DNA from: Candidatus Pacearchaeota archaeon CG10_big_fil_rev_8_21_14_0_10_34_76
GTDB taxonomy: Archaea > Nanobdellota > Nanobdellia > Pacearchaeales > GW2011-AR1
DNA: 63,685 nucleotides
Assembly (NCBI GenBank): GCA_002763075.1
Contig: PFDB01000002.1
Span: forward strand, 126,286 to 189,970
Direction of reading: 5' to 3'
In this document: one piece after another, positions 32,877-57,444 of the stretch
Layout: every line of letters begins with the position of its first letter
How positions within the stretch are numbered: position 1 is the stretch's first letter
The notes under the pieces: model-generated
The model's database searches: none
What the model was told of the DNA's origin: nothing
The model's input: only the letters and a program-made list of their open reading frames with translations
Position numbers and translations under genes: made by a program

Positions 32877-33680
32877 CTATAAACTATCAAACGGATTTTG
32901 CACCTTCTTTATTTGATCTGAGGAAATATGGGTATAAATCTGCGTCGTGTTGAGTGATGAATGCCCTAATAATGCTTGAATCATTCTTATGTCTGTTCCT
33001 GCTTCCAATAGGTGTGTTGCAAAGCTGTGCCTTAGTGTATGGGGAGTTACCTTTTTACTTATCTCGCCCCTTTGGCTTGCTTTCTTCACAATTTTCTGGA
33101 TGTTTCTTGTAGTAAGCGGTTTTTCCTTTGAAAATACATAAAGGTTATTTCTTTTTTTAAGATAGTCTTGTATATCTTTGGCGAGATTTTCAGATATTAT
33201 AAATGCCCTGTCTTTAGAACCTTTTCCTTTTCTTACCCACCCTATTTTTTCATCTATATTTAAATCAGAAGTTTTTAGGTTGACAATTTCAGAAACCCTC
33301 AGACCAGATGAATAAAGCAATGAGAGTATGAGGCGGGATTTTTTTGTTTCTGTGGCCTCGATTATTCTTTTTACTTCTTCTTTTGTAAGAACTTCTGGAA
33401 GAGTCTTTGATTTTTTTGGGACTCTCACTGTGCTGAATTCCATTTTAAGAACTTCCATATAGAAAAATTTTAGGGCGGCTGCTGCAAGCATTATTGTATT
33501 TTTTGATTTGGTTTCAAAGAGTGTTGAGAGGTATTCTTTTGCATCTTCTTGTGTCAGTTGATCTTCAGATTTTTTTGAATGTATTAAGAACTTTTGAACG
33601 AAAAAAGAATAGTTCCTTACAGTCATCGGAGAAAATCCCCTCAGTTTTAACTCCATCTTTAGTTTTTCTACATATTCCAT
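32877..33680 (-). CDS. xerA: Tyrosine recombinase XerA
   Basis: A 267-residue tyrosine recombinase. The N-terminal SAM-like DNA-binding domain (about 1-85) is followed by the catalytic domain with SSGLRVSEIVNLK (first Arg, about 129), VTPHTLRHSFATHLLEAGTD (HxxR, about 214-217), LLGHSSLNTTQIYTH with the nucleophile Tyr. The compact length is typical of archaeal XerA, which resolves chromosome dimers. No adjacent element boundaries are seen, so a chromosomal role is more likely than a mobile one. Confidence 0.92.
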   Translation of the reverse strand: MEYVEKLKMELKLRGFSPMTVRNYSFFVQKFLIHSKKSEDQLTQEDAKEYLSTLFETKSKNTIMLAAAALKFFYMEVLKMEFSTVRVPKKSKTLPEVLTKEEVKRIIEATETKKSRLILSLLYSSGLRVSEIVNLKTSDLNIDEKIGWVRKGKGSKDRAFIISENLAKDIQDYLKKRNNLYVFSKEKPLTTRNIQKIVKKASQRGEISKKVTPHTLRHSFATHLLEAGTDIRMIQALLGHSSLNTTQIYTHISSDQIKKVQNPFDSL

Positions 33681-38528: not shown

Positions 38529-38921
38529 TTAAGAATTTAAAGTGCTCGGATCTGAAGGGGAATATTCCGGAAAAATTATTTTCTTTAGGTATTCGGGAAG
38601 CCCTGACCCTTCTAGTATGTCTCTTATGTCTGGATTAGTCACCGGGTTTTTGGATTCCCAAGAATGTCCCTTTTGATGAAATTCATACCTTCCAACTAGT
38701 TCCCATTTTTCTCCCCTATCGTCTACGTCGTGTCTGATAACGTTTAATTCTTCCTCTGGACCGATGTAACAATTTCCCCTTGGTAAGTTCTTTAAGTCTC
38801 TTTTTTCATGACTGATGGTAAGAAAACAATTTGAAAACCCGTCCTCTCTTCTTTGAATAACAGTATACACTTTTCCTTCACTTGTGATTTCTCCAACGAA
38901 TTTTGTTTCAAGAGTTCCCAT
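38529..38921 (-). CDS. Hypothetical soluble protein under the shared divergent promoter
   Basis: A 130-residue protein, beta-rich by appearance (TKFVGEITSEGKVYTVIQRR, then CFLTISHEKRDL). No family recognised. Its start lies exactly 22 nt from a 28-bp element also found 22 nt upstream of the genes at 39565-40014 and 40544-40798. It is the first gene of a three-gene leftward operon. Confidence 0.55.
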   Translation of the reverse strand: MGTLETKFVGEITSEGKVYTVIQRREDGFSNCFLTISHEKRDLKNLPRGNCYIGPEEELNVIRHDVDDRGEKWELVGRYEFHQKGHSWESKNPVTNPDIRDILEGSGLPEYLKKIIFPEYSPSDPSTLNS

Positions 38922-38942: not shown

Positions 38943-39007
38943 TTTTTAAATTTATCTTAAAGCGAACTTATAGAAAGAGTTAAAAAGAGAAGAAAATAAG
39001 GATTTTT
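38943..39007. promoter_or_regulatory. Divergent promoter module (copy C of a shared element)
   Basis: 38943-38970 (TTTTTAAATTTATCTTAAAG...) matches 26 of 28 bases of the elements at 40036 and 40820. Read on the minus strand it gives a TATA-like ATAAATTTAAAAA ending 22 nt before the ATG at 38921. The rightward side has TTAAAAAGAG at 38980-38989, 28 nt before the ATG at 39008, the same spacing as at 40131-40140 before the ATG at 40159. Confidence 0.7.
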
Positions 39008-39358
39008 ATGACTGATACGAGATATACACCAGAGGGCTTGCCTAGAGTTACAAGAGCAACAATCGAAGAGTACATGAGAAACTATAAAAGAATACACGAT
39101 AGTCTCCAAGTTCCTTATAATGAAATTGCTATGGAAATGAGAAGTGAAATTGCTATGGAAATGAGAAGAGAAAATCCCGAAATAGCCGACTGGTTCGCAA
39201 AGTCTCTGAAAAAAACACCAGCAATGTCAAGAGAGGTATCAATGTCTATGGTTATAGGGGCTAGTATGTTATATGGTTTGCTAAAGGAACAAGCAGAGAA
39301 AAATCGTGATGAGGATGAAAAAGCGAGAGTATCTTTTGAAGGATATCAATTAGAGTAA
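39008..39358 (+). CDS. Hypothetical protein with an internal 8-residue duplication
   Basis: A 116-residue, mostly helical charged protein. A 24-bp tandem duplication at 39122-39169 gives EIAMEMRS followed by EIAMEMRR. A moderately hydrophobic stretch (VSMSMVIGASMLYGLL) may be a membrane or packing helix. No family recognised. It shares a rightward promoter element with the gene at 40159. Confidence 0.55.
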   Translation: MTDTRYTPEGLPRVTRATIEEYMRNYKRIHDSLQVPYNEIAMEMRSEIAMEMRRENPEIADWFAKSLKKTPAMSREVSMSMVIGASMLYGLLKEQAEKNRDEDEKARVSFEGYQLE

Positions 39359-39406
39359 ATTCTTAGGTCTCTAAAACTTTAAATAGATTTGATTATTAAT
39401 TTTGAT

Positions 39407-39568
39407 ATGAAGATCATAAAAGAGAGGTCAAGAACCTATAAGGAACAGGCATATTACAAGTATAAAATAAATATCCCTGAGATGAAATTAGATGATGCAG
39501 GGTTTAAAGAAGGTGATGAATTAGAGTGTGTTGCTGAGAAAGGGAAAATTGTTTTGAAGAGGGCCTAA
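39407..39568 (+). CDS. Small AbrB/SpoVT-like DNA-binding protein
   Basis: A 53-residue protein starting MKIIKERSRTYKEQAYYKYK. The second half, KLDDAGFKEGDELECVAEKG followed by KIVLKRA, is the swapped-hairpin pattern seen in AbrB/MazE-like domains (GxxxGDELxV...G.I.L.K). A TATA-like TTTAAATAG precedes it by about 30 nt. Small size suggests a dimeric regulator or an orphan antitoxin; no toxin gene is recognised beside it. Confidence 0.6.
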   Translation: MKIIKERSRTYKEQAYYKYKINIPEMKLDDAGFKEGDELECVAEKGKIVLKRA

Positions 39569-40014
39569 ACAAGTGATCTTAAATCTCTTGGAACGGAGGA
39601 GGGCACTTTTTCTTCGTATTCCGGCTTGCGATAGAGGCCTCTAGGAATACGTAAGCTTTCGAGAACGCGATGATCTCCTGGGAATTCTATCGGCCAAAAA
39701 TCCAAATATCCGAGACAAGATAGTTCGCCTTCTGAAATTCTGAAAGTTTTTTCAGCAAAATCTGAAATAATCTTGGCTTCTTCTGTCGATTTGTGTATTC
39801 CTGGAGTAGAGTAGAAATCATTTAAATGCCTATAAACTCTAGAGAGTATTCGCATTCCAATTAATTCATCGCGTGAAAAAGATTCATTGAATTTTTCAAT
39901 TTTCTTTCTTTCATCTCTATTGCACTCAATCCATCCTTGTTCCCAAGGTTTTTGTGGATTACTCACAAGTCTATGAAAGACAGGTTTTTTGAATGGTTTT
40001 TGATAGGGTATCAT
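39565..40014 (-). CDS. Hypothetical protein under shared promoter copy A
   Basis: A 149-residue soluble protein (FHRLVSNPQKPWEQGWIECN, then FDRDELIGM-like helix and GELSCLGYLDFWPIEFPGDH). No family recognised. It starts 22 nt from shared element copy A and ends by overlapping the convergent AbrB-like gene by 4 nt. Confidence 0.55.
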   Translation of the reverse strand: MIPYQKPFKKPVFHRLVSNPQKPWEQGWIECNRDERKKIEKFNESFSRDELIGMRILSRVYRHLNDFYSTPGIHKSTEEAKIISDFAEKTFRISEGELSCLGYLDFWPIEFPGDHRVLESLRIPRGLYRKPEYEEKVPSSVPRDLRSLV

Positions 40015-40035
40015 AATTGGTGATAGAGGGGGACA

Positions 40036-40106
40036 TTTTTAAATTTATCTTAATCCGAACTTATCCTTTATGTTGGAAGTTATTGGCGAAAGCTAAAGGT
40101 TTTAGC
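40036..40106. repeat. 71-bp dispersed repeat, copy A (promoter and hairpin)
   Basis: This 71-bp segment and the one at 40820-40890 match at about 66 positions without gaps. Both start 22 nt upstream of a leftward gene. The minus strand reads as TATA-like ATAAATTTAAAAA preceded by TAAGTTCGGATTAAG. The far end carries the inverted repeat GCTAAAGGTTTTAGC, a possible operator hairpin. In this copy a rightward promoter (TTAAAAAGAG, 40131-40140) follows. Confidence 0.85.
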
Positions 40107-40158
40107 ATGTGAATTCTAGGATAGGAATGGTTAAAAAGAGCGGAAAAGTAAGTTTTTT

Positions 40159-40485
40159 ATGGAATCATTAGATATTGAGATTGGAAAAGTACTTGACAAA
40201 GATTTAGAAAAATCTAGAAAACGAGTTGGGCTTGCTTTAAATTCTAGGATTTGGAAATATTTAAATGCTGTTGTAAGCAATCATGCAAGAAAGATAGAGG
40301 GTCGTGTTAAAGCAAGGTCGGGGATAGAATGTTCTGAATTACGAAGCTATAATGATGCGGTTGATGCATTGGCTCAGTTTGAAAATCTTTTGCAAAGAGA
40401 ATTTCACCTCAGTGTTGGTAGAGTTAATTATGCAATGACCGAAGTCTACAGACAATCTTATTCTGAAAAAAGAGTTCCTGCTTAA
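40159..40485 (+). CDS. Hypothetical helical protein
   Basis: A 108-residue basic, mainly helical protein (DLEKSRKRVGLALNSRIW, NHARKIEGRVKARSG, VGRVNYAMTEVYRQSY). No family recognised. Its upstream TTAAAAAGAG sits 28 nt from the ATG, exactly as for the gene at 39008. The composition would fit a nucleic-acid-binding protein, but no motif proves it. Confidence 0.55.
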   Translation: MESLDIEIGKVLDKDLEKSRKRVGLALNSRIWKYLNAVVSNHARKIEGRVKARSGIECSELRSYNDAVDALAQFENLLQREFHLSVGRVNYAMTEVYRQSYSEKRVPA

Positions 40486-40543
40486 CCCGAATCTTTCCAG
40501 AGTTCAGTTAATGTATCTTGTGCGAAGTTTTTACGTGTAAAAC

Positions 40544-40798
40544 TTATTTTTGTCTGTAAAATTGAATAGGGTATACTTCTGAAGGAGTTCCCGTGACATC
40601 TTTGCTAATTTTGTATCCTATTACATATGCAACTGCTTCTTGGGGCACGTTTCTTTTTCCTTCAACCGAAAGTTCCCTTCCATCGATTCCTCCATCAATT
40701 TCAATTGCCCAAGTTGGTTTTCCCAAGGCTATTAAATCTGGCCTTTTTGGTATGTCTTCGTCCACTAATCCTTCAAGATTATTAGTCCATTTACTCAT
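40544..40798 (-). CDS. Hypothetical protein under shared promoter copy B
   Basis: An 84-residue protein (DLIALGKPTWAIEIDGGIDG and VPQEAVAYVIGYKISKDVTG). No family recognised, no membrane segment. It starts 22 nt from shared element copy B. The preceding 58 nt up to the convergent gene at 40485 hold nothing recognisable. Confidence 0.55.
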   Translation of the reverse strand: MSKWTNNLEGLVDEDIPKRPDLIALGKPTWAIEIDGGIDGRELSVEGKRNVPQEAVAYVIGYKISKDVTGTPSEVYPIQFYRQK

Positions 40799-40819
40799 TT
40801 TATTATCTTGGTTTTGAAG

Positions 40820-40890
40820 TTTTTAAATTTATCTTAATCCGAACTTATCTGTTATGTTGGAAGTTTTAGGCGTAAGCTAAAGGTTTTAGC
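40820..40890. repeat. 71-bp dispersed repeat, copy B (promoter and hairpin)
   Basis: Partner of the 71-bp element at 40036-40106, with about five substitutions and no gaps. The hairpin here extends to AGCTAAAGGTTTTAGCT (7-bp stem, 3-nt loop). It lies 22 nt upstream of the gene at 40544-40798. No rightward gene follows; instead the stop codon of a leftward DUF3096-like gene lies 5 nt beyond. Confidence 0.85.
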
Positions 40891-40894
40891 TAGA

Positions 40895-41056
40895 CTAGAT
40901 TGGTGAGAAATCAACATAAGTTCCTAGGAGTTGTAGAATTCCGAAAATTACTAGGTATAGTCCTACTGCCCATCTTAAGAGCTTTGGAAATATGAGAATT
41001 ACTATTCCAAGGATTATTGCTAGAATTGCTGAGATTGTTAATGAGATTGTAGCCAT
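40895..41056 (-). CDS. DUF3096-like small membrane protein
   Basis: A 53-residue protein, almost wholly hydrophobic: ATISLTISAILAIILGIVIL, then FPKLLRWAVGLYLVIFGILQ. Two membrane helices joined by a short FPKLLRW turn, as in the DUF3096 family found in many archaea and bacteria. Function unknown. No overlap with neighbours. Confidence 0.65.
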   Translation of the reverse strand: MATISLTISAILAIILGIVILIFPKLLRWAVGLYLVIFGILQLLGTYVDFSPI

Positions 41057-42063: not shown

Positions 42064-42214
42064 AATGGGTTGAATTATCCATTTTATAGAAATTGATGGG
42101 AAAAGTTGTTTAAATATGTTTCTTTTTTCTTGACGATTTTGAGAAACTGCTATTTCTTTTAATCCTTAAAAAAGAAAGAATTAATGAAAAAAATTAGGTT
42201 TTTCGGGCGCAATC

Positions 42215-42241
42215 GGCGCTTCGCGCCTCAATTTATTGAGG
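42215..42241. repeat. Two overlapping inverted repeats in a GC-rich island
   Basis: GGCGCTTCGCGCC (5-bp stem, 3-nt loop) is followed, with a 2-nt overlap, by CCTCAATTTATTGAGG (7-bp stem, 2-nt loop). The two structures cannot form at once, so they could switch. Flanked by T-rich DNA in a non-coding stretch between the 48-residue gene and the repeat cluster. Confidence 0.7.
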
Positions 42242-42293
42242 TAATTTTTTCTTGATAGGGGGGGACTTATTTTTAAGTATCTGGAGAGTTTTC

Positions 42294-42440
42294 AAGGGTG
42301 TTTTTGGGTGTTTAAGTGGTGTTTAAGTGGTGTTTAAGTGTGTTTTTTTAATTACCCTCGCTGTTTAGGGGTGTTTAAACAGCTGTTTAAAATAAATCCT
42401 AGGGTGTTTTTGGGTGTTTAAGTGGTGTTTAAGTGTGTTT
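42294..42440. repeat. Iteron-like GGTGTTTAAGT direct repeats
   Basis: Three adjacent copies of the 11-mer GGTGTTTAAGT at 42307-42339 and two at 42413-42434. Each group is set in a larger duplicated context (AAGGGTGTTTTTG / TAGGGTGTTTTTG before, TGTGTTTTTT after). They lie in the 455-nt non-coding stretch upstream of the winged-helix gene at 42502. One inverted relative (TTAAACACC) occurs inside that gene at 42608-42616. Confidence 0.9.
42374..42391. promoter_or_regulatory. 18-bp perfect palindrome
   Basis: TTTAAACAGCTGTTTAAA is a perfect palindrome midway between the two iteron groups and about 110 nt upstream of the winged-helix gene. Its core AAACAGCTGTTT occurs again at 42631-42642 in that gene, and AAACAGCTG at 42742-42750. 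Confidence 0.9.
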
Positions 42441-42501
42441 TTTACTACTTTTTTAGGTAAAATTACGAAAGATTTATATACGATAAATCATAGAAATCTA
42501 T

Positions 42502-43140
42502 ATGTTTTGGATATTTAATGGTAAAAAAAGAGTAGAAAATCTTGAAGAAAATACTAAGAGGGGTTTTGAAGAAGTAAAAAAAGATTTTGAAGGTGTTGGT
42601 AAATGGATTAAACACCTAGACAACAGAGATAAACAGCTGTTTGATATTATTCGAGAGATAAAATCAGAATTGTCCTCGATTAATGATGAGGTTGATGGTT
42701 TGAGAGAAGCTCTTTCTTTAATGAATTTTGCCTCTGAGGGCAAACAGCTGTCCAAAAAACAAACAGGTGTTGGTAAACAGATGCCTGTTTATAGTGTTCA
42801 AGAACCTGTCCAAACACCTGTCCAAACAGGCAATTTTCACCAAATTTTGCAGAATTTGAGTGCGAACGAAAGATTGATAGTTCTTACACTTTTGAATGCG
42901 GAAGGAGATATGAAGTTAAGTTATGAGGATATTGCTAAGCTACTCGGAAAAGAGAGATCTACGATTAGAGGGCAAATAAACTCAATAAAACAGAAAAGTG
43001 AGAGTTTAGTATATGAATTAACCGAACCTAATGGGAAGAAAAGAGTGTATATCCCTGAAGAAATTAAAGAAAAACTGCTGAAATACGCGAAAGTGAGAGT
43101 TGGCAATGATAAAAAATCTGAAAAAAAGAGGAAAAAGTGA
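42502..43140 (+). CDS. Coiled-coil / linker / winged-helix DNA-binding protein A
   Basis: A 212-residue protein. Residues 1-75 form a charged coiled coil (RVENLEENTKRGFEEVKKDF). Residues about 80-115 are a low-complexity linker (PVYSVQEPVQTPVQTGN). Residues about 115-200 are a winged helix (LSANERLIVLTLL, then YEDIAKLLGKERSTIRGQIN and wing NGKKRVYIP). The C-terminal domain aligns with that of protein B (43435-44181). The linker DNA is full of AAACAG/CCTGTTT repeats. A TATA-like GATTTATATACG lies about 25-30 nt upstream. Probably binds the surrounding repeats. Confidence 0.75.
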   Translation: MFWIFNGKKRVENLEENTKRGFEEVKKDFEGVGKWIKHLDNRDKQLFDIIREIKSELSSINDEVDGLREALSLMNFASEGKQLSKKQTGVGKQMPVYSVQEPVQTPVQTGNFHQILQNLSANERLIVLTLLNAEGDMKLSYEDIAKLLGKERSTIRGQINSIKQKSESLVYELTEPNGKKRVYIPEEIKEKLLKYAKVRVGNDKKSEKKRKK

Positions 43141-43434: not shown

Positions 43435-44181
43435 TTAGAGTGTTCTGAGTTGGTGGATTGTTTCAAGGGTGACTATTTTTCTGAGATCTTTTGAAATTGA
43501 AAGGGTTATCCTTTTGTTGTTTTCCTTAAGTTTATCGACGGGAATGCCTTTTTTAATGAGTCTTAGAACATAATCTCTGATAGAACTTTCTGTTAATTTG
43601 AGTTTTTCTGAGAGAATTGAATAATCGACGATGAATCCTTGTTCTTCTAGTTCGTATATTGTGCTAAATACTTGCATTTCTTGCGAGGTTAATCTTTTGA
43701 ATTTAAAACGAACTTCTTTCTTTAATTCGTCGAGGGATCCTAGAAGTTCTGATGCTCTGTGTATTTGGGTTAAAATGTGGGGTTTTTCTATGTTTTTTGA
43801 GGTTTTTAATGTATTCTCTTGTATTTCTGGCAGTTTTATGTGTAGTTCTGATGTGTTCAATGGTAGATTTTGAGGATTTTTCTCTGTTTTCCAGTGGAAA
43901 TAGGGGGGTTGTCTGTCTGTCTGTTGGTCTGTCTGTCTGTCTGTCGAAACCCCTTCATTTCCAGTGGAGATTGTTGAAATTTGGCTTTTTACGGCTTCTA
44001 GAGACAAATTATGTGTTGGAGTGTCTGTCTTATGTCTGTTGTCTGTCTGTTTCTTTAGTATTTCTGTCTGAATTTCATTTAATTCTTGTATAGTTCGTTT
44101 TAATTCTTGAAGTTCATAGTATAAGAAATCTATATCTTGTCTTGCATTAGCGAAGGCTTCCTTTATTTTGTCTTCCTGCAT
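43435..44181 (-). CDS. Coiled-coil / linker / winged-helix DNA-binding protein B
   Basis: A 248-residue protein of the same plan as protein A: coiled coil (about 1-48, FLYYELQELKRTIQELNEIQ), a long polar linker (about 49-150, with TDRQTDQQTDRQ), and a winged helix (about 160-248: LTSQEMQVFSTIYEL, YSILSEKLKLTESSIRDYVL, NNKRITLSIS). The linker DNA is packed with TGTCTGT repeats on the plus strand and two origin-recognition-box-like sites. Converges with protein A. A role in replication, partition or autoregulation is inferred. Confidence 0.75.
   Translation of the reverse strand: MQEDKIKEAFANARQDIDFLYYELQELKRTIQELNEIQTEILKKQTDNRHKTDTPTHNLSLEAVKSQISTISTGNEGVSTDRQTDQQTDRQPPYFHWKTEKNPQNLPLNTSELHIKLPEIQENTLKTSKNIEKPHILTQIHRASELLGSLDELKKEVRFKFKRLTSQEMQVFSTIYELEEQGFIVDYSILSEKLKLTESSIRDYVLRLIKKGIPVDKLKENNKRITLSISKDLRKIVTLETIHQLRTL
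43889..43971. promoter_or_regulatory. Two inverted ORB-like sites flanking a TGTC tetranucleotide array
   Basis: Plus-strand TTCCAGTGGAAATAGGGGGG (43889-43908) and minus-strand CTCCACTGGAAATGAAGGGG (within 43950-43971) resemble the archaeal mini-ORB (TTCCASTGGAAAC plus a G run). The G runs face each other. Between them, 43909-43945 is an almost pure TGTC tetranucleotide repeat. More TGTCTGT copies follow at about 44019-44070. All lie inside the coding linker of protein B. Confidence 0.65.
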
Positions 44182-49824: not shown

Positions 49825-50232
49825 TTATTTTGCTGGCTTTTGAATTTTAGGTAAACTAATATGAAGGGGGAGTCCTAAATCTTCTTCCATTTGGAGGGCC
49901 TTAAGAGAACATTTATTTAAGATTATATTAAAAACGGGCACCTTTAGTTCGTCATTCATTTTTTTCTTTTTCCAGTCTTTTATTGTTTTGTCTAAAATGT
50001 CTTCCGTTGTGCTTAGTAATAAAATTCCTTCAAAGGTTAGTTCTGCTTGCTTTGTTTCATATTCAATAGAAAATTTGAAAGATATTTTTAATATTTTAGA
50101 ATCCTTCATTATTTCAATGTTGTCTTTTTCTATATTTGTAAATTCAATATTTGTGGAAATTTTTTCTATTTTTTCTAACTTAATATTTCTTTTTGCAGAG
50201 ACATTTGTGAAATTAATACCTAAAAGTTTCAT
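49825..50232 (-). CDS. Hypothetical protein
   Basis: A 135-residue lysine- and isoleucine-rich protein with alternating beta strands (LKISFKFSIEYETKQAELTF) and the segment EGILLLSTTEDILDKTIKDW. The pattern recalls SecB-like small chaperones, but I cannot assign it. Convergent with the phosphoesterase gene, 5 nt apart. Confidence 0.6.
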   Translation of the reverse strand: MKLLGINFTNVSAKRNIKLEKIEKISTNIEFTNIEKDNIEIMKDSKILKISFKFSIEYETKQAELTFEGILLLSTTEDILDKTIKDWKKKKMNDELKVPVFNIILNKCSLKALQMEEDLGLPLHISLPKIQKPAK

Positions 50233-50285
50233 GTTTAAGGGGATTTTAAATTCTTTTTAAAGTTTTGTATTATTTAGTTGGAAAG

Positions 50286-50546
50286 TTATAAAAGATCTTC
50301 TTCAGAAACAACTACGAAATCGCCAATAGCTATAATTGAATTATATGGGACTATTGGTTCTTTTTGAGAAGAAATTTCTAAGTTTAAATTTCTCGTGTAT
50401 GGGGTCGCTTCCTTTAATATAATCTGAATTAGTTCTCCTGTTCTTGTTTCAAAAGAAATATCCTTTACTATTCCTAGTCTTTTTCCTTCTTTTGTTACAA
50501 CAAGCCTGCCAACAATGTCTTTTAAGAGCTTTTTATCTAGTGCCAT
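50286..50546 (-). CDS. PRC-barrel domain protein
   Basis: An 86-residue single PRC-barrel domain: DIVGRLVVTKEGKRLGIVKD at the start, FETRTGELIQIILKEA in the middle and VPYNSIIAIGDFVVVSEEDL at the end. Archaeal stand-alone PRC-barrels occur next to replication and cell-division genes. This one is the left neighbour of the candidate origin. Confidence 0.88.
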   Translation of the reverse strand: MALDKKLLKDIVGRLVVTKEGKRLGIVKDISFETRTGELIQIILKEATPYTRNLNLEISSQKEPIVPYNSIIAIGDFVVVSEEDLL

Positions 50547-50710
50547 TGTGGAGATAACTTTGAGAAGTATATAAAGTTTTTCGTGGTCTGTTGTGCTATT
50601 TTAAAGGATTTAATGACAAAGATTTCTTAAATAAATAAGGGATGCAAGTGGAACTTCTTAGGGCAATACATTAAGGTATATGAAAATTAATTGAATTGAA
50701 TTGTTGGCAC

Positions 50711-51100
50711 CCTCACCCTATCATTTCCACTGGAAAAATCATAAAGGTTTAAATATAGAGGAGGAAATTCATTTCTTCTTCTTTTCTTTTATAAATATAT
50801 ATATATTATATTATATATATTATATTATTAATATTTAAATAGTATATATTAAAACAAAGCATATCAAAGTATTATATATTAAAATGACCAATATTAAAAT
50901 CCTATGACTTTTGATATTAATAGTTCTTTAATCTCTTATTTTAAAATTTTAAATATTAAACTTTTATAGCATTTCATTAAATGATTTATTTACTCTATTT
51001 AACATTTTTATTAAGATTTTAGTGTGGTTGTTCGTTAATGTTCGTTTAACGCAACAATAATATATTTAATTAAACAGAGACTCCAGTGGAAACGGGGGTG
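50711..51100. other. oriC: Candidate replication origin (oriC) with inverted ORBs and AT-rich unwinding region
   Basis: The 685-nt gene-free stretch 50547-51231 lies directly before orc1/cdc6. It contains two ORB-like sites in opposite directions: minus-strand TTCCAGTGGAAATGATAGGG (core 50724-50736) and plus-strand CTCCAGTGGAAACGGGGGTG (51081-51100). Both have the dyad followed by a G run pointing outward. Between them is very AT-rich DNA with TATATATTATATTA tracts (50795-51000), a probable unwinding element. TTCGTTAA/TTCGTTTAA repeats occur at about 51030-51049. Origins next to orc1 and Pol D genes are common in archaea. Confidence 0.85.
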
Positions 51101-51231: not shown

Positions 51232-52440
51232 ATGACGGTCAAATTAAATAAAATATTCGATTCTATAGCTGGAAATATAATTTTTCGTGATAAAAGTGTT
51301 TTGCAAATAAACCATACGCCTGGATCGATACCACATAGAGATGAACAAATCGAAGCAGTTGCGTCTATATTGGCGCCTTCGCTAAGGGGAGATAGAGTAA
51401 GTAATTTATTTGTTTATGGAAAGACTGGAACTGGAAAGACACTATGTGTGCAATATGTAACAAATGAAATAAGCAAAAGGGTAAAGGAAACCGGAGAGGA
51501 CGTCTTAAAGGTAATATATGTTAATTGTAAGTTGAAAAAGGTAGCTGATACAGAATATAGGATATTAGCTGAAATAATAAATCGACTAGGGGGAAGTGTC
51601 CCAGCGACAGGCCTTCCCACAGATAGCGTTTATAATAAGTTTATTGAATTAATTGATGGGAAGAAACAAGTAATATTAATTGTTTTGGATGAAATAGACC
51701 AGGCTGTAAAGAAAATATCTGATAGTTTTCTCTATACCCTAACAAGATTGAATTCGGAGCTGAAAAATGCACAAATAAGTATTGTCGGAATAAGTAACAG
51801 CTTAACATTTATGGATGAACTAGATCCAAGAGTTAGAAGTTCGCTTGGAGAGGAAGAACTTGTATTTCCTCCATATAATGCATTACAATTGCAAGAAATA
51901 TTAAAGAAAAGAGCAAGTGAGGCCTTTAATGAAGGCATTTTAAGTGAGGGGGTTATAGCAAAGTGTGCTGCCTTTGCAGCAAGAGAACATGGGGATGCAA
52001 GAAGAGCTCTTGATTTGTTGAGGGTTGCTGGAGAATTAGCAGAAAGGTCGGGAATAAAAAAATTGGATGTTGTTAGAATCGACGAAGCAAATAGTAAAAT
52101 AGAAAAAGATAAAATGCTAGATATTATAGAAAGTGAGCCTAAACAGTTTCAACTTGTACTCTTTGCTATTATGAGTCTGAGCCAAGATGAAAAAATGAAT
52201 AAGATCTTTACTGGAGATATTTATAATAAATATGAAGAAATATGCAGAAAGACAAAGAACGAGGCACTTACACAAAGGAGAGTGTCAGATATCGTTGCTG
52301 AGTTTGATATGTTAGGATTAATAAATGCTAAGGTGGTTAGCAAGGGAAGACAAGGACGAACGAGAGAAATAAAATTGATGCTTCCTGAAAATGTTCGCAA
52401 TAAGGCAAGAGAAATATTGATAGAATCATTGAATTTATGA
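51232..52440 (+). CDS. orc1: Origin recognition/initiator protein Orc1/Cdc6
   Basis: A 402-residue AAA+ initiator. It has VYGKTGTGKTLCVQYV (Walker A, about 61-70), ILIVLDEIDQAVKK (Walker B, about 145), sensor 1 VGISNSLTFMDELDPRVRSS, sensor 2 HGDARRALDLLRVAGELAE, and a C-terminal winged helix (about 300-402, LTQRRVSDIVAEFDMLGLIN). It binds ORBs and loads MCM. A TATA-like AAATTTATAACG lies about 35-45 nt upstream. It overlaps the DP1 gene by 4 nt, so initiator and polymerase are co-translated. Confidence 0.96.
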   Translation: MTVKLNKIFDSIAGNIIFRDKSVLQINHTPGSIPHRDEQIEAVASILAPSLRGDRVSNLFVYGKTGTGKTLCVQYVTNEISKRVKETGEDVLKVIYVNCKLKKVADTEYRILAEIINRLGGSVPATGLPTDSVYNKFIELIDGKKQVILIVLDEIDQAVKKISDSFLYTLTRLNSELKNAQISIVGISNSLTFMDELDPRVRSSLGEEELVFPPYNALQLQEILKKRASEAFNEGILSEGVIAKCAAFAAREHGDARRALDLLRVAGELAERSGIKKLDVVRIDEANSKIEKDKMLDIIESEPKQFQLVLFAIMSLSQDEKMNKIFTGDIYNKYEEICRKTKNEALTQRRVSDIVAEFDMLGLINAKVVSKGRQGRTREIKLMLPENVRNKAREILIESLNL

Positions 52441-54008
52441 ATCCAAAAATATTAAGTTTAATAAGAGAAAAAGGAATCTTACTAGAGAAGGATCTTTTTG
52501 AGTTGTTAAAGGAATTTGATGATGTAAAACTCGCAGGAGATTTTTTAGAGGGGCTTGAAAGTGTTTCGGGACAAAAAATTATTACTACTTCAAGTCTGAA
52601 TAAGAATTTAAACTATGTTCAAGAAATTGTAAAAGAACTTCCTGGAGAAATGAAGGGGCTTGTTGAAAGGACATTTTTTAAATTGGGACTTAGCCTAGAG
52701 ATAAAAAAAGAGATTGAAATAAAGTCTGGTGAAAATGTTGAGAAAAAAAACAATAATTATCAAATATTCTACGCAGATACAAAGAATGAAAAGAAAATTA
52801 ATGTTCAAGATTTTGTAGGACATTTTAGAGCGAGATACCACCAACTTCAAGGAATCTTAATGGATAGACCAGAGTTGCAAAATTTAATTTCTATAAATAA
52901 AATATCAAGGGAAAGAAATAGTTTTAATATTATAGGAATTGTTTCGGAAAAGCGCAAAACTAAGAATGGAAATCTCATAGTCAAATTTGAGGATATGACT
53001 GGGTCTATAAGTGCCCTCTTTAAAAAAGATGGAGATTGTTTTGTGACGGCAGAAGAACTACAAATGGATGATGTGGTGGCTGTCAAGGCATCTGGAAACA
53101 ATGAAATGATATTCGGACACGAAATAATTTTTCCTGATGTTTTTAAGGATAAAGTAAAATTTGATGAAGAGGTGTGTATTGGATTTATATCTGATGTACA
53201 TACTGGAAGCGCCAAGCACTTGGGTGAGGAATTCAAGAGGTTTTTAGAATGGATAAAAAGCGATGATGAGTTGGCTAAAAAAATAAAATATCTTTTTTTT
53301 GTAGGAGATAATGTGGATGGGGTTGGTGTTTTTCCAGGCCAAGAATCTCTTTTAAAACTTACAAGTCTAAAAGAACAATATAATCTTCTTGCCTCATACC
53401 TTAAAGAAATCCCTTCGGATATTACAATGTTCATGTGTCCTGGACAACACGACTCTGTAAGGGTTCCAGAACCCCAACCAGTCATAGACAACTATTATGG
53501 GGAAGCACTATATGAAATTCCTAATCTTGTTTTGGTCTCAAATCCTTCTACCATAAAGATTTTAGAGAAAGATAAGGTGTTTAAGGTATTGATGTACCAT
53601 GGGGCGAGTATTCACACATTTATTAATGAGATAACTGAATTGAGGATGTTAAAAGCACACAAATGCCCTGCAAAGGCCGTTAAACATATGCTGAAGAGGA
53701 GGCATCTGGCTCCAATGCATGGAGTTTCCACATCTATTGTTTATGTTCCAAACGCAAAGAAAGACCCATTGGTAATAAGTGAAGCCCCAGATGTTCTTTG
53801 TACTGGAGAGGTGCATAGATTAGACATAGAAAATTATCATGGTGTTTTAATAATCACAGGAAGCTGTTGGCAGGCACAAACAGATTTTGAAGAGAAGGTT
53901 GGGAATATTCCAGACCCTTGCAAGGTGCCAGTGTTAAACCTGAAAACTAGGGAATTGAAAATATTAGACTTTACAGGAAATAGTGAGGAAAATAAAAATG
54001 GACATTGA
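52437..54008 (+). CDS. polB: DNA polymerase D small subunit DP1 (3'-5' exonuclease)
   Basis: A 523-residue protein with a variable N-terminal part, an OB fold (NIIGIVSEKRKTKNGN, about 160) and a phosphoesterase domain: IGFISDVHTGSAKHLG (about 250), FVGDNVDGVG, MCPGQHDSVR, YHGASIHTF and CTGEVHRLD. The metal ligands needed for exonuclease activity are present. It proofreads for DP2. The start ATG overlaps the orc1 stop. Confidence 0.95.
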   Translation: MNPKILSLIREKGILLEKDLFELLKEFDDVKLAGDFLEGLESVSGQKIITTSSLNKNLNYVQEIVKELPGEMKGLVERTFFKLGLSLEIKKEIEIKSGENVEKKNNNYQIFYADTKNEKKINVQDFVGHFRARYHQLQGILMDRPELQNLISINKISRERNSFNIIGIVSEKRKTKNGNLIVKFEDMTGSISALFKKDGDCFVTAEELQMDDVVAVKASGNNEMIFGHEIIFPDVFKDKVKFDEEVCIGFISDVHTGSAKHLGEEFKRFLEWIKSDDELAKKIKYLFFVGDNVDGVGVFPGQESLLKLTSLKEQYNLLASYLKEIPSDITMFMCPGQHDSVRVPEPQPVIDNYYGEALYEIPNLVLVSNPSTIKILEKDKVFKVLMYHGASIHTFINEITELRMLKAHKCPAKAVKHMLKRRHLAPMHGVSTSIVYVPNAKKDPLVISEAPDVLCTGEVHRLDIENYHGVLIITGSCWQAQTDFEEKVGNIPDPCKVPVLNLKTRELKILDFTGNSEENKNGH

Positions 54009-57000
54009 AGGTCATTTTAATGAGATAGACAAGAAAGTAAAATTGGCATATGTTATTGCAGAAAATGCTCGGAAGAAGGGGCTTGATCCTGTAACTAAGG
54101 TAGAGACCCCATTAGCGATCTCATTGGCTGAAAAAACTGTCGGGTTAATTTCGGTAGTATATCCGCAGATAGCTGATCAAAAAATTGTAGATAGGATACT
54201 TCAACTTGAAGAACAACATGGACAATTAAATACTGCGGTTGCGTTTAAAATTGCAGAAGAGGTTGCTAGAGAGAAATATTGTAAGTTTTCTAGCATGCTA
54301 GAAGCCATGGAAGCAGGAATAAGGGTCGGATTTTCTTATATCACCTTGGGTGTTGTATCTTCTCCCATTGAGGGATTCACAGGACTTAAGGTCGGAAAAA
54401 CAAAAAAGGGAGAAGATTATTTAATTGCTTATTTTTCAGGACCTATAAGAAGTGCAGGAACTACTGCTTCGTGTGTTGTTTTAATGCTTATTGATTATTT
54501 GAGGGAAAATTTTGGATTTGCTAAGTACGATCCCGATGAGAGCGAGGTTAAGAGATATGTAACTGAAAATTATGATTATCATGAAAGAGTTACAAACCTT
54601 CAGTATCTTCCTAGTGAAAAAGAAATAACCTATCTTGCCGAAAATTTACCTATTCAAATAGCCGGAGAACCAACAGAAGACAAAGAAGTTTCAAATTATA
54701 AAGATCTTGCAAGAGTAGAAAGTAATTTTATAAGGGGAGGGATGTGTTTAATATTTTCTGAAGGATTGGCTCAAAAGGCTCAGAAAGGATTGAGGCTTCT
54801 AAAGGGAGTTCAAGAAAAAGGATTTGTAACCAGCGGGTGGGATTATTTAGAAGGATATGTTGAATTAAAAAATAAAAAGGAAAAGGGAGCAAGCGATAGT
54901 TCTCCTACATACATTAAGGATCTTGTAGCCGGGAGACCAGTTTTTGGCCATCCTGCAGCATCTGGTTCATTCAGATTTAGATATGGAAGATCAAGAACTT
55001 GTGGATTTTCAGCAATGTCTGTTCATCCAGCCACCATGGGTATAACAAATTCTTTTATTTCTACTGGAACACAACTTAAGATAGAAAAGCCAACCAAGGG
55101 GTGTGCCATTTCCGTTTCTGATGGTATTGATGGTCCGATAGTGAAAATGAAGGATGGAAGTGTTTTAAGGCCAAAGACATTTGATGAAGCATTAGAAGTG
55201 TATCCTAAAGTTGAAGAGATATTATATTTAGGAGATATATTAGTTCCATTTGGAGATGTTGCAAATAGAAATTATGAACTTATTAAACCAGGGTATGTTG
55301 AAGAATGGTGGAATCTAGAATTACAGAAGGCAAATAGTAAGGAAGATGTAGATTACCTTAATGTTGGTTTTGAAAAATCAATTGAATTATCAAAAAAGTA
55401 TTCTTTGCCATTATATCCTGCGTACATATATTTTTGGAGCCAAATTAAATATGAACAGTTTCTTTCATTGATTGATTGGATTGCACACGGACACTTAAAT
55501 GAGGGAGGGAGCCTTGTATTGCCTTTCAACCATAGTGAGAAAGAAAGGTTTTCTAAGGGAAAGAGGGCCTTGGAATTAATAGGATGTGAACATAACGTAA
55601 CGATAGAAAATGTTGTGATAAACCCAAGAGAAAGTAAGGCACTATTGTTTAATATTGGAGTTGACATTGAAAAGAGCTGGGAGAATCAGATTGAGTTGAT
55701 TTTGAAGAGAATTCCTAAGAGTGGAGATGTAATTGAAATTATAAATAAGTTATGTAGCGTAGTAATAAAAGATAAGGCCGGAAGTTTTATAGGGGCGAGG
55801 ATGGGAAGACCCGAGAAGGCCAAGCTTAGGAAACTTACTGGAAGTCCACATGTTATTTTTCCGGTGGGTGCAGAGGGAGGAAGATTAAGGAGTTTTCAAG
55901 CTGCGCTTGATGTAGGGTTTGTGCAGTCGGATTTTCCATTATTTTATTGTAGTAATTGTAAGGAAGAGGTGGTTTTTCCTAAGTGCGAATGGTGTGGGGC
56001 AGATAGTAAAAAGATGAATTATTGTCCCAGGTGTGATAGAAATTATGAAGGTAATTGTCCAGAACACGAATTTGTTTTACCATATAAAAACAGAAAAATA
56101 GATATTCGAAAATATTTTGAAGGTGCGAAAAAGAGTGTTGGGTTAAGGATTGAGGAGTTACCTGCAGCAGTTAAGGGGGTCAGAGGAACTTCAAGTGAAG
56201 AACATAGGTGTGAATATTTAGCAAAGGGTCTACTAAGGGCAAAATATAATCTCCATGTGAACAAGGATGGGACCATAAGATATGATATGACTGAAATGCC
56301 ACTAACGCATTTTAAGCCAAGGGAAATTGGGACAAGTATAAAAATTTTGAAAAAACTTGGATATGAGAAAGATATATTTGGAAATGAGATTGAGGATGTA
56401 GAACAAACTATAGAAATATTTCCTCATGATATCATACTTCCCTCTTGTCCGTATTCTGGGGATGATAGGGCAGATGAGACATTTGTAAAAGTTAGTCAAT
56501 TCGTGGATGATGAACTAGAGAAGGTATACGGGTTGGAGAGACATTTTAATGCAAATACAAAAGAAGAGATTATTGGAGAGTTGTTTGCATGTATTGCACC
56601 GCATATTTGCACCGCAGTCGTGGGAAGACTAATAGGATTCTCTAAAACTCAAACATTTTTTGCATCACCATATATTCATGCTGCCATGAGAAGAGATTGT
56701 GATGGTGATGAGGCTGCGGTAATGCTTCTTATGGATATGCTTTTGAATTTCTCAAGAAAATTTCTTCCTGCACATAGGGGTGGAACTCAAGATGCTCCTC
56801 TTGTCCTTAATTCAAGAATAAATGCTGGAGAAGTTGATGACCAAATTCTGGATTTTGAAGCAGGAGCATATCCCCTCGAACTTTATGAACTTGCAGAGCA
56901 AAAAAAGCATTCTTCTGAAGTGAAGATTGAAAATATAAAAATGAGACTTAAGGGAGGAAATAACCCATTTATAAATCTTGTATTTACACATAATACTTCA

Positions 57001-57444
57001 GATATTAACGGGGGGGCTTTGAATTCTTCTTATAAATCTCTTCCTACAATGGGAGATAAGGTTGAGAAAATGATGGAGCTTTGTAAAAAGATAAGGGCAG
57101 TGGATACTACAGATGTGGCTAGATTAGTTATAGAAAGACATTTTATTAGAGATATCAGGGGTAATTTTAGAAAGTTTTCAATGCAGGTTTTTAGGTGTGT
57201 GGGATGTAATGAAAAATATAGAAGGCCCCCATTGGTCGGAAAGTGTACTAAATGCGGAGGAAAGTTGATATTTACAATATCTGAGGGAAGTATTTTGAAA
57301 TATATGCAGGGGGCTTTGAATTTAGCTAATACATTTGGGGTTAGTTCTTATTTAATTGAATGTCTGGATCTTGTTAATAGAGATATTGAGGGGATGTTTG
57401 GAAGGGATGCCGAGAAACAAGAGGCACTTAGTAAATGGTTCTGA
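53998..57444 (+). CDS. polC: DNA polymerase D large subunit DP2
   Basis: A 1148-residue catalytic subunit found only in archaea. It has GPIRSAGTTASCVVLMLIDY early, ASGSFRFRYGRSRTCGFSAM, zinc-binding CSNCKEEVVFPKCEWC (about 650) with CPRCDRNYEGNC, the catalytic MRRDCDGDEAAVMLLMDML (about 897), and a C-terminal CVGCNEKYRRPPLVGKCTKC. The start ATG at 53998 lies in the 3' end of DP1. The length shows no intein, which often splits this gene. Confidence 0.96.
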   Translation: MDIEGHFNEIDKKVKLAYVIAENARKKGLDPVTKVETPLAISLAEKTVGLISVVYPQIADQKIVDRILQLEEQHGQLNTAVAFKIAEEVAREKYCKFSSMLEAMEAGIRVGFSYITLGVVSSPIEGFTGLKVGKTKKGEDYLIAYFSGPIRSAGTTASCVVLMLIDYLRENFGFAKYDPDESEVKRYVTENYDYHERVTNLQYLPSEKEITYLAENLPIQIAGEPTEDKEVSNYKDLARVESNFIRGGMCLIFSEGLAQKAQKGLRLLKGVQEKGFVTSGWDYLEGYVELKNKKEKGASDSSPTYIKDLVAGRPVFGHPAASGSFRFRYGRSRTCGFSAMSVHPATMGITNSFISTGTQLKIEKPTKGCAISVSDGIDGPIVKMKDGSVLRPKTFDEALEVYPKVEEILYLGDILVPFGDVANRNYELIKPGYVEEWWNLELQKANSKEDVDYLNVGFEKSIELSKKYSLPLYPAYIYFWSQIKYEQFLSLIDWIAHGHLNEGGSLVLPFNHSEKERFSKGKRALELIGCEHNVTIENVVINPRESKALLFNIGVDIEKSWENQIELILKRIPKSGDVIEIINKLCSVVIKDKAGSFIGARMGRPEKAKLRKLTGSPHVIFPVGAEGGRLRSFQAALDVGFVQSDFPLFYCSNCKEEVVFPKCEWCGADSKKMNYCPRCDRNYEGNCPEHEFVLPYKNRKIDIRKYFEGAKKSVGLRIEELPAAVKGVRGTSSEEHRCEYLAKGLLRAKYNLHVNKDGTIRYDMTEMPLTHFKPREIGTSIKILKKLGYEKDIFGNEIEDVEQTIEIFPHDIILPSCPYSGDDRADETFVKVSQFVDDELEKVYGLERHFNANTKEEIIGELFACIAPHICTAVVGRLIGFSKTQTFFASPYIHAAMRRDCDGDEAAVMLLMDMLLNFSRKFLPAHRGGTQDAPLVLNSRINAGEVDDQILDFEAGAYPLELYELAEQKKHSSEVKIENIKMRLKGGNNPFINLVFTHNTSDINGGALNSSYKSLPTMGDKVEKMMELCKKIRAVDTTDVARLVIERHFIRDIRGNFRKFSMQVFRCVGCNEKYRRPPLVGKCTKCGGKLIFTISEGSILKYMQGALNLANTFGVSSYLIECLDLVNRDIEGMFGRDAEKQEALSKWF

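Follow-up and report, generated by a model that had tools for sequence, protein, structure and literature searches.

A dif-like site between conserved 57-bp sites suggests an exchange slot for small genes near orc1/cdc6 in Pacearchaeota

Why should the DNA in front of a set of small genes be more alike than the genes themselves? The question is raised by a short part of the window, the whole stretch of 63,685 nucleotides of a Pacearchaeota genome analysed here. As the original prediction described, copies of a 28-bp element begin at 38943, 40036, and 40820, in each case 22 nt from the start of a leftward gene (38921, 40014, and 40798), and TTAAAAAGAG lies at 38980 and 40131, 28 nt ahead of the rightward starts at 39008 and 40159. 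Positions 40036-40106 and 40820-40890 are 93% identical over 71 bp, and GCTAAAGGTTTTAGC is present in both. That conservation is higher in the DNA than in the genes also holds. Among the proteins with matching upstream regions, no BLASTP pair reaches E<=1. The genes are as follows.

38529..38921, minus strand: L1, an orphan of 130 aa, found only in its own genome of 138
39008..39358, plus strand: R1, 116 aa, of an unnamed small family (YTPEGLP...LKRQAE) present in 7 of 138 genomes including its own
39407..39568, plus strand: AbrB/MazE-like protein of 53 aa (Pfam and NCBIfam matches weak, below cut-off), 87% identical in a relative contig, L065
39565..40014, minus strand: L2, an orphan of 149 aa, own genome only, of 138
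40159..40485, plus strand: R2, an orphan of 108 aa, own genome only, of 138; stop 16 nt before the dif-like site described below
40544..40798, minus strand: L3, an orphan of 84 aa, own genome only, of 138; stop 16 nt from the dif-like site
40895..41056, minus strand: DUF3096 protein (Pfam DUF3096), with its stop codon adjoining the right type I site described below

Four of the five flanking proteins are thus restricted to their own genome among the 138.

The best pairs among the module upstream regions rank first or second of 13,695 upstream-region pairs drawn from ~230 kb. The three regions exceed nearly all other pairs in identity, and therefore share a common ancestry. The 18-mer TTTTTAAATTTATCTTAA has three exact occurrences in the 914-kb assembly, all at this locus. 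The genome search for further copies that had been suggested found the 71-bp repeat at this locus only, where a 131-bp query matches the 71-bp copy (E 1.5e-24) and a 29-bp copy (E 4.5e-6). Exact GCTAAANNNTTTAGC is confined to the two palindromes.

Part of each module is a promoter of a common kind. Counted from the start codon, lead genes in ~230 kb of the genome have A-rich DNA at positions -34 to -31, followed by a TTTAAA/TTTATA box at positions -29 to -22; no ribosome-binding signal is evident ahead of them. A TATA-like hexamer whose first base lies 32 to 24 nt ahead of the start codon is present for 82 of 166 lead genes, compared with 21-27 in control windows. The norm in this genome is leaderless transcription, with the TATA box 22-29 nt ahead of the start codon. 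The spacings of 22 and 28 nt are therefore unremarkable, since the TATA position in the modules is the genome-wide default. Near copies of the 18-mer also precede a tRNA gene here (L005), a tRNA gene in a relative (L008), and start codons elsewhere. The boxes are located as follows.

38980..38989, plus strand: TATA-like box of R1, 28 nt before the ATG at 39008
40036..40049, minus strand: TATA box of L2, adjoining the left type I site, 22 nt from the ATG, the genome-wide norm
40131..40140, plus strand: TATA-like box of R2, 28 nt before the ATG at 40159
40820..40833, minus strand: TATA box of L3, adjoining the right type I site, 22 nt from the ATG, the genome-wide norm

On sequence comparison, the core of the shared modules is a conserved 57-bp DNA site, termed type I, and not a promoter. 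It consists of a TTTAACCGAACTT box, ~6 variable bases, TATGCTGAAAGTTTTAAGC, and then a second GCTAgAAAGTTTTAGC, and two direct repeats resembling GCTgAAAGTTTTAAGC occur in it, about 21 bp apart. In some genera, a CACTAC box replaces CGAACTT; the length is conserved at 56-57 bp. The window holds two complete copies and one partial copy.

38943..38971, minus strand: a leaderless promoter plus no more than the initial ~15 bp of a type I site (TTAAAGCGAACTTAT); it shares 29-37 bp with the other two copies
40050..40106, plus strand: type I site, left copy, 57 bp (models R1/R2; E 1e-10 when the window copies are excluded)
40834..40890, plus strand: type I site, right copy, 57 bp (models R1/R2; E 5e-12 when the window copies are excluded)

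Relatives carry the same site. In contig L065, one type I element lies at the matching place and a second just behind the AbrB-like gene, where no leftward promoter stands beside it; contig L084 has three copies. A profile model (R1, not to be confused with gene R1) built from seven copies in the window, L065, and L084 yields 65 matches in 40 of 138 family genomes, representing 27 genera; these matches include the model's own seven seeds and two places (G068, G069) counted on both strands. The same model detects no type I site in 98 of the 138 genomes. Forty-five of the 65 matches lie 0.2-3.0 kb upstream of an orthologue of HTH212, an anchor gene described below, in 28 genomes, and 42 of these share its strand. 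A 46th match lies 13.3 kb from an HTH212 orthologue, and several of the remaining ones are on contigs without an HTH212 gene, some of them close to contig ends. A second model, R2, gives no convincing type I site in 19 far-relative loci, indicating that the site is clade-limited or has diverged.

The placement of type I sites relative to genes was counted for 61 non-overlapping sites from 31 genomes, overlapping opposite-strand matches having been dropped (68 to 61). The end of the site falls at an opposite-strand stop codon (-15 to +40 nt) in 32 of the 61, compared with 6.9 expected by random placement, and the start of the site falls at a same-strand stop in 16 (5.0 expected by random placement). 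A leftward ATG is found 15-60 nt from the site in 14 of the 61 (6.5 expected). Some sites in relatives lie between convergent genes with no promoter alongside, and in two genomes (G072, G047) tandem sites have nothing between them. The XerA gene of G115 has one small ORF behind it, and the stop of this ORF overlaps a type I site.

These results bear on the idea that the modules are shared promoters of a co-regulated set. Their promoter portion is the leaderless TATA box ordinary in this genome, and the remaining ~57 bp lie mostly at gene 3' ends in relatives, sometimes between convergent genes with no promoter alongside. The proposed 'hairpin' is located upstream of each TATA box and, with leaderless transcription on both sides, would be absent from either mRNA. 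An RNA element was likewise rejected: Rfam returned one irrelevant weak match, and the 45 aligned copies support neither base pairs nor any RNA structure. Of the earlier suggestion of a co-regulated accessory set or promoter spread by recombination, the spread is plausible and the co-regulated set is unsupported.

Between the two complete type I copies, in the gap between the convergent genes R2 and L3, lies a candidate recombination site. It and the recombinase gene are located as follows.

32877..33680, minus strand: XerA (NF040815, 259 bits against a cut-off of 220; one PF00589 match)
40501..40528, plus strand: candidate dif (XerA) site, 28 bp in an 11-6-11 arrangement, AGTTCAGTTAA TGTATC TTGTGCGAAGT, found with a model of 21 other sites

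XerA is the only tyrosine recombinase found in the assembly at E<=1e-8. The model of 21 other sites recovers the window site at E 1.2e-6, with no other good match in the 380 kb scanned of the 914-kb genome, and 320 kb of another genome (G011) also contain one match. The dif-like consensus, AGTTCGGTTAA TGTATC TTGTGCGAACT, is 28 bp long and is present in relatives too. A match at E<=0.05 occurs in 22 of 47 loci, nearly all of them 0.8-4 kb upstream of HTH212, and 25 of the 47 have none at this threshold; the seeds of this model came from the same 47 loci, one seed that is not 28 nt long having been left out. Across 27 sites having two arms and a 6-bp spacer within 28 bp, the arms pair at a mean of 6.8 of 11 positions, versus 2.9 after shuffling; in the window site they pair at 6 of 11. 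Identity with E. coli dif is 18 of 28, which is not significant alone, as 34 places in the 380 kb equal or exceed it. By its conservation, symmetry, and place, then, the site looks like dif.

Type I sites flank dif at roughly 320-830 bp and in the same orientation. Fourteen genomes have dif and two or more type I sites; in 11 of them, dif is placed between type I sites (a hand count; chance 0.0007-0.03). In the other three (G112, G086, and G078), the best dif is not between type I sites, and G072, whose contig ends about 100 bp past dif, was left out of the count.

Three genes of the wider locus are as follows.

42502..43140, plus strand: HTH212, a predicted coiled coil plus MarR-like wHTH (AlphaFold, Foldseek), the anchor gene, in 116 of 138 genomes
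43435..44181, minus strand: HTH248, a predicted coiled coil plus MarR-like wHTH (locus comparison, AlphaFold, Foldseek)
51232..52440, plus strand: orc1/cdc6 (TIGR02928 over cut-off), followed by PolD subunit genes (52437-57444)

HTH212 and HTH248, convergent in the window, occur together on plus and minus strands, respectively, in all 32 loci compared, with p95 in nearly all. In 19 of the 32, orc1 lies on the plus strand 2.9-8.8 kb away; most of the others are too short on that side, L170 excepted. The window dif is about 11 kb from orc1. By structure, HTH212 and HTH248 match generic MarR/ArsR folds, the models having a mean pLDDT of 64 and 67, and no Pfam family above cut-off covers either protein.

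The neighbourhood holds other repeats. At 42300-42830, before and inside the HTH212 gene, there are clusters of GTGTTTAAGTG and AAACASSTGTTT, similar to those in L121, L122, and L131, and these are perhaps binding sites of HTH212 itself. Repeats of the CAGACAGACAGA type at 43900-44060, inside the HTH248 gene, encode a TDRQTDQQTD stretch, also seen in L071. A GC-rich intergenic hairpin, GGCGCTTCGCGCC, occurs in several genomes (window 42204-42250; L065 16453-16501; L084 6800-8480), and another intergenic repeat, TAATTATCKCG..AATCCGRGGAAAAT, lies in the same slot of L065 (13922-13967 and 15200-15247). Just upstream of orc1, at 50000-51000, an AT-rich dip (GC 0.25) is a candidate replication origin; GC skew was uninformative about the origin.

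Around the sites, genes change. Gene content between the sites varies greatly among genomes, and slots elsewhere hold PIN, ParE, and PemK toxins, an HNH protein, DUF2283, and DUF4258 (Pfam names). In two genome pairs (G063/G112 and G130/G144), dif is kept as a lone block of 28-29 bp with both flanks divergent; in another (G114/G066) the dif island measures 53 bp. Where G112 has 22 bp between a conserved gene and dif, G063 carries two additional genes. The AbrB-like gene is left of the type I site in G044 and right of it in G128. Type I sites can also persist as short islands between related genomes while the neighbouring genes differ. Two genomes of the same genus (G109/G130) are collinear across dif over 6 kb, and turnover is therefore not constant. 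The GC content of the slot is not foreign. In G086, an ORF adjoining a type I site begins KYTPEGLSVV, similar to the start of the gene R1 family. The sequences show the sites with their positions, orientation, and placement at gene ends, and genes replaced both between and beside them in related genomes.

The explanation we favour, with somewhat better than even confidence, is a slot of exchangeable genes, linked to orc1, centred on dif, and with type I sites at its boundaries. The slot would be a hypervariable region upstream of HTH212, in the orc1/cdc6 neighbourhood, with type I sites bracketing a putative XerA site. Genes would enter and leave at the dif and type I boundaries, by the action of XerA at dif and/or by recombination at the type I repeats, and the genes would be swapped with boundary and promoter DNA retained. 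In the window, the boundary carries the leaderless promoter of the next gene, which would explain why the promoters seem better conserved than the genes. Such short repeats could also be moved by homologous recombination or simple duplication, and type I, without the full Xer 11-6-11 form, may instead be used by a wHTH protein. In a bolder form, which is tentative and more apt to be wrong than right, DPANN archaea would possess an integron-like exchange platform combining the housekeeping XerA/dif with a new 57-bp boundary site, not IntI/attC. Such a platform would be fixed beside orc1/cdc6, and so perhaps beside a replication origin, and would supply leaderless promoters to incoming orphan or toxin-antitoxin genes.

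Several known systems resemble this slot in part. The dif (pdif) modules of Acinetobacter are described as small genes, often toxin-antitoxin pairs, that have Xer sites at their boundaries and are shuffled on both plasmids and chromosomes (PMC6449649, PMC13141974, PMC12907356). The slot is like them in its small genes and, as far as those accounts go, in its putative Xer site. However, a dif module is a gene set between two Xer sites, and the window has one good dif-like site; each slot here pairs a single such site with an unlike 57-bp boundary site, on an archaeal chromosome beside orc1, with a putative movement deduced from comparison of sequences. Some archaea carry a xerA/dif module, according to a review (PMC5357621), and, as in archaeal XerA/dif dimer resolution, the genome has a XerA over the NCBIfam cut-off, and a single 11-6-11 site was found in the 380 of 914 kb examined. 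In the accounts consulted, archaeal dif lies in terminus regions (PMC2958812, PMC5357621), for Thermococcales 122-142 degrees from oriC (PMC2958812), unlike the window site near orc1. Within the openly accessible literature, nothing was found for 'dif site' in DPANN, and the match for a Pacearchaeota 'replication origin' concerns, in its available text, G-quadruplexes.

Integrons are known in archaea (PMC9668308), and, as described there, the likeness lies in oriented sites of ~57 bp at gene 3' ends and in arrays of orphan and toxin-antitoxin genes. Unlike integrons, the slot holds genes in both directions. The only tyrosine recombinase found in the assembly, that of the window, scores 216 bits with TIGR02249, below the cut-off of 265, and an IntI integrase was rejected. 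So was attC: the ends of the sites are not complementary (by eye), the fold is weak, with z-scores of -0.7 to -2.5 (both strands, four copies), and with RNA parameters 45 type I copies give no consensus pairs. A virus or plasmid island was rejected too, as the flanking orphans have no PHROG or PADLOC match above weak noise and the GC content is not foreign; a pattern with 27 fixed bases has no exact match in viral or GTDB contigs.

The main rival arises from the MarR-like wHTH neighbours, and we regard it as doubtful: type I sites would be operators, or a centromere-like array, for HTH212/HTH248, and would control the leaderless genes or tether the origin region. It is consistent with the near-palindromic half-sites two helical turns apart, the predicted MarR-like folds, the position of the sites 0.2-3 kb upstream of HTH212 and on its strand, and the excess of nearby leftward ATGs. 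Against these stand the occurrence of HTH212 in 116 of 138 genomes and of type I in 40, the preference for gene 3' ends, including sites between convergent genes, and the separate AAACASSTGTTT motif cluster of the HTH212 gene. Distinctly unlikely is a second reading, in which type I sites would assist the dif reaction as accessory sequences, in a fixed partnership with XerA, and gene turnover would be incidental. ArgR/PepA sites assist cer in this way, and both the same orientation and the roughly 320-830 bp spacing of type I around dif and the resemblance (by eye) of the first box, TTAACCGAACTT, to a dif arm, TTGTGCGAACT, would suit it; however, dif-like sites occur without type I in 8 of 19 far-relative loci and in G011, and type I number and distance vary. 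An ordinary local duplication of a promoter-bearing stretch within 2 kb, and nothing more, is hardly credible: it fits three copies inside 2 kb and none elsewhere in the genome, but many genomes (40, from 27 genera) have copies of 56-57 bp at this locus, and conservation across genera speaks against it.

The genomes of DPANN archaea are small and rich in orphan genes of unknown origin. If the reading of a dif-centred exchange slot is true, this fixed slot would be a concrete entry point for such orphan genes, and the Xer site would be found not in the terminus region but next to the initiator gene.
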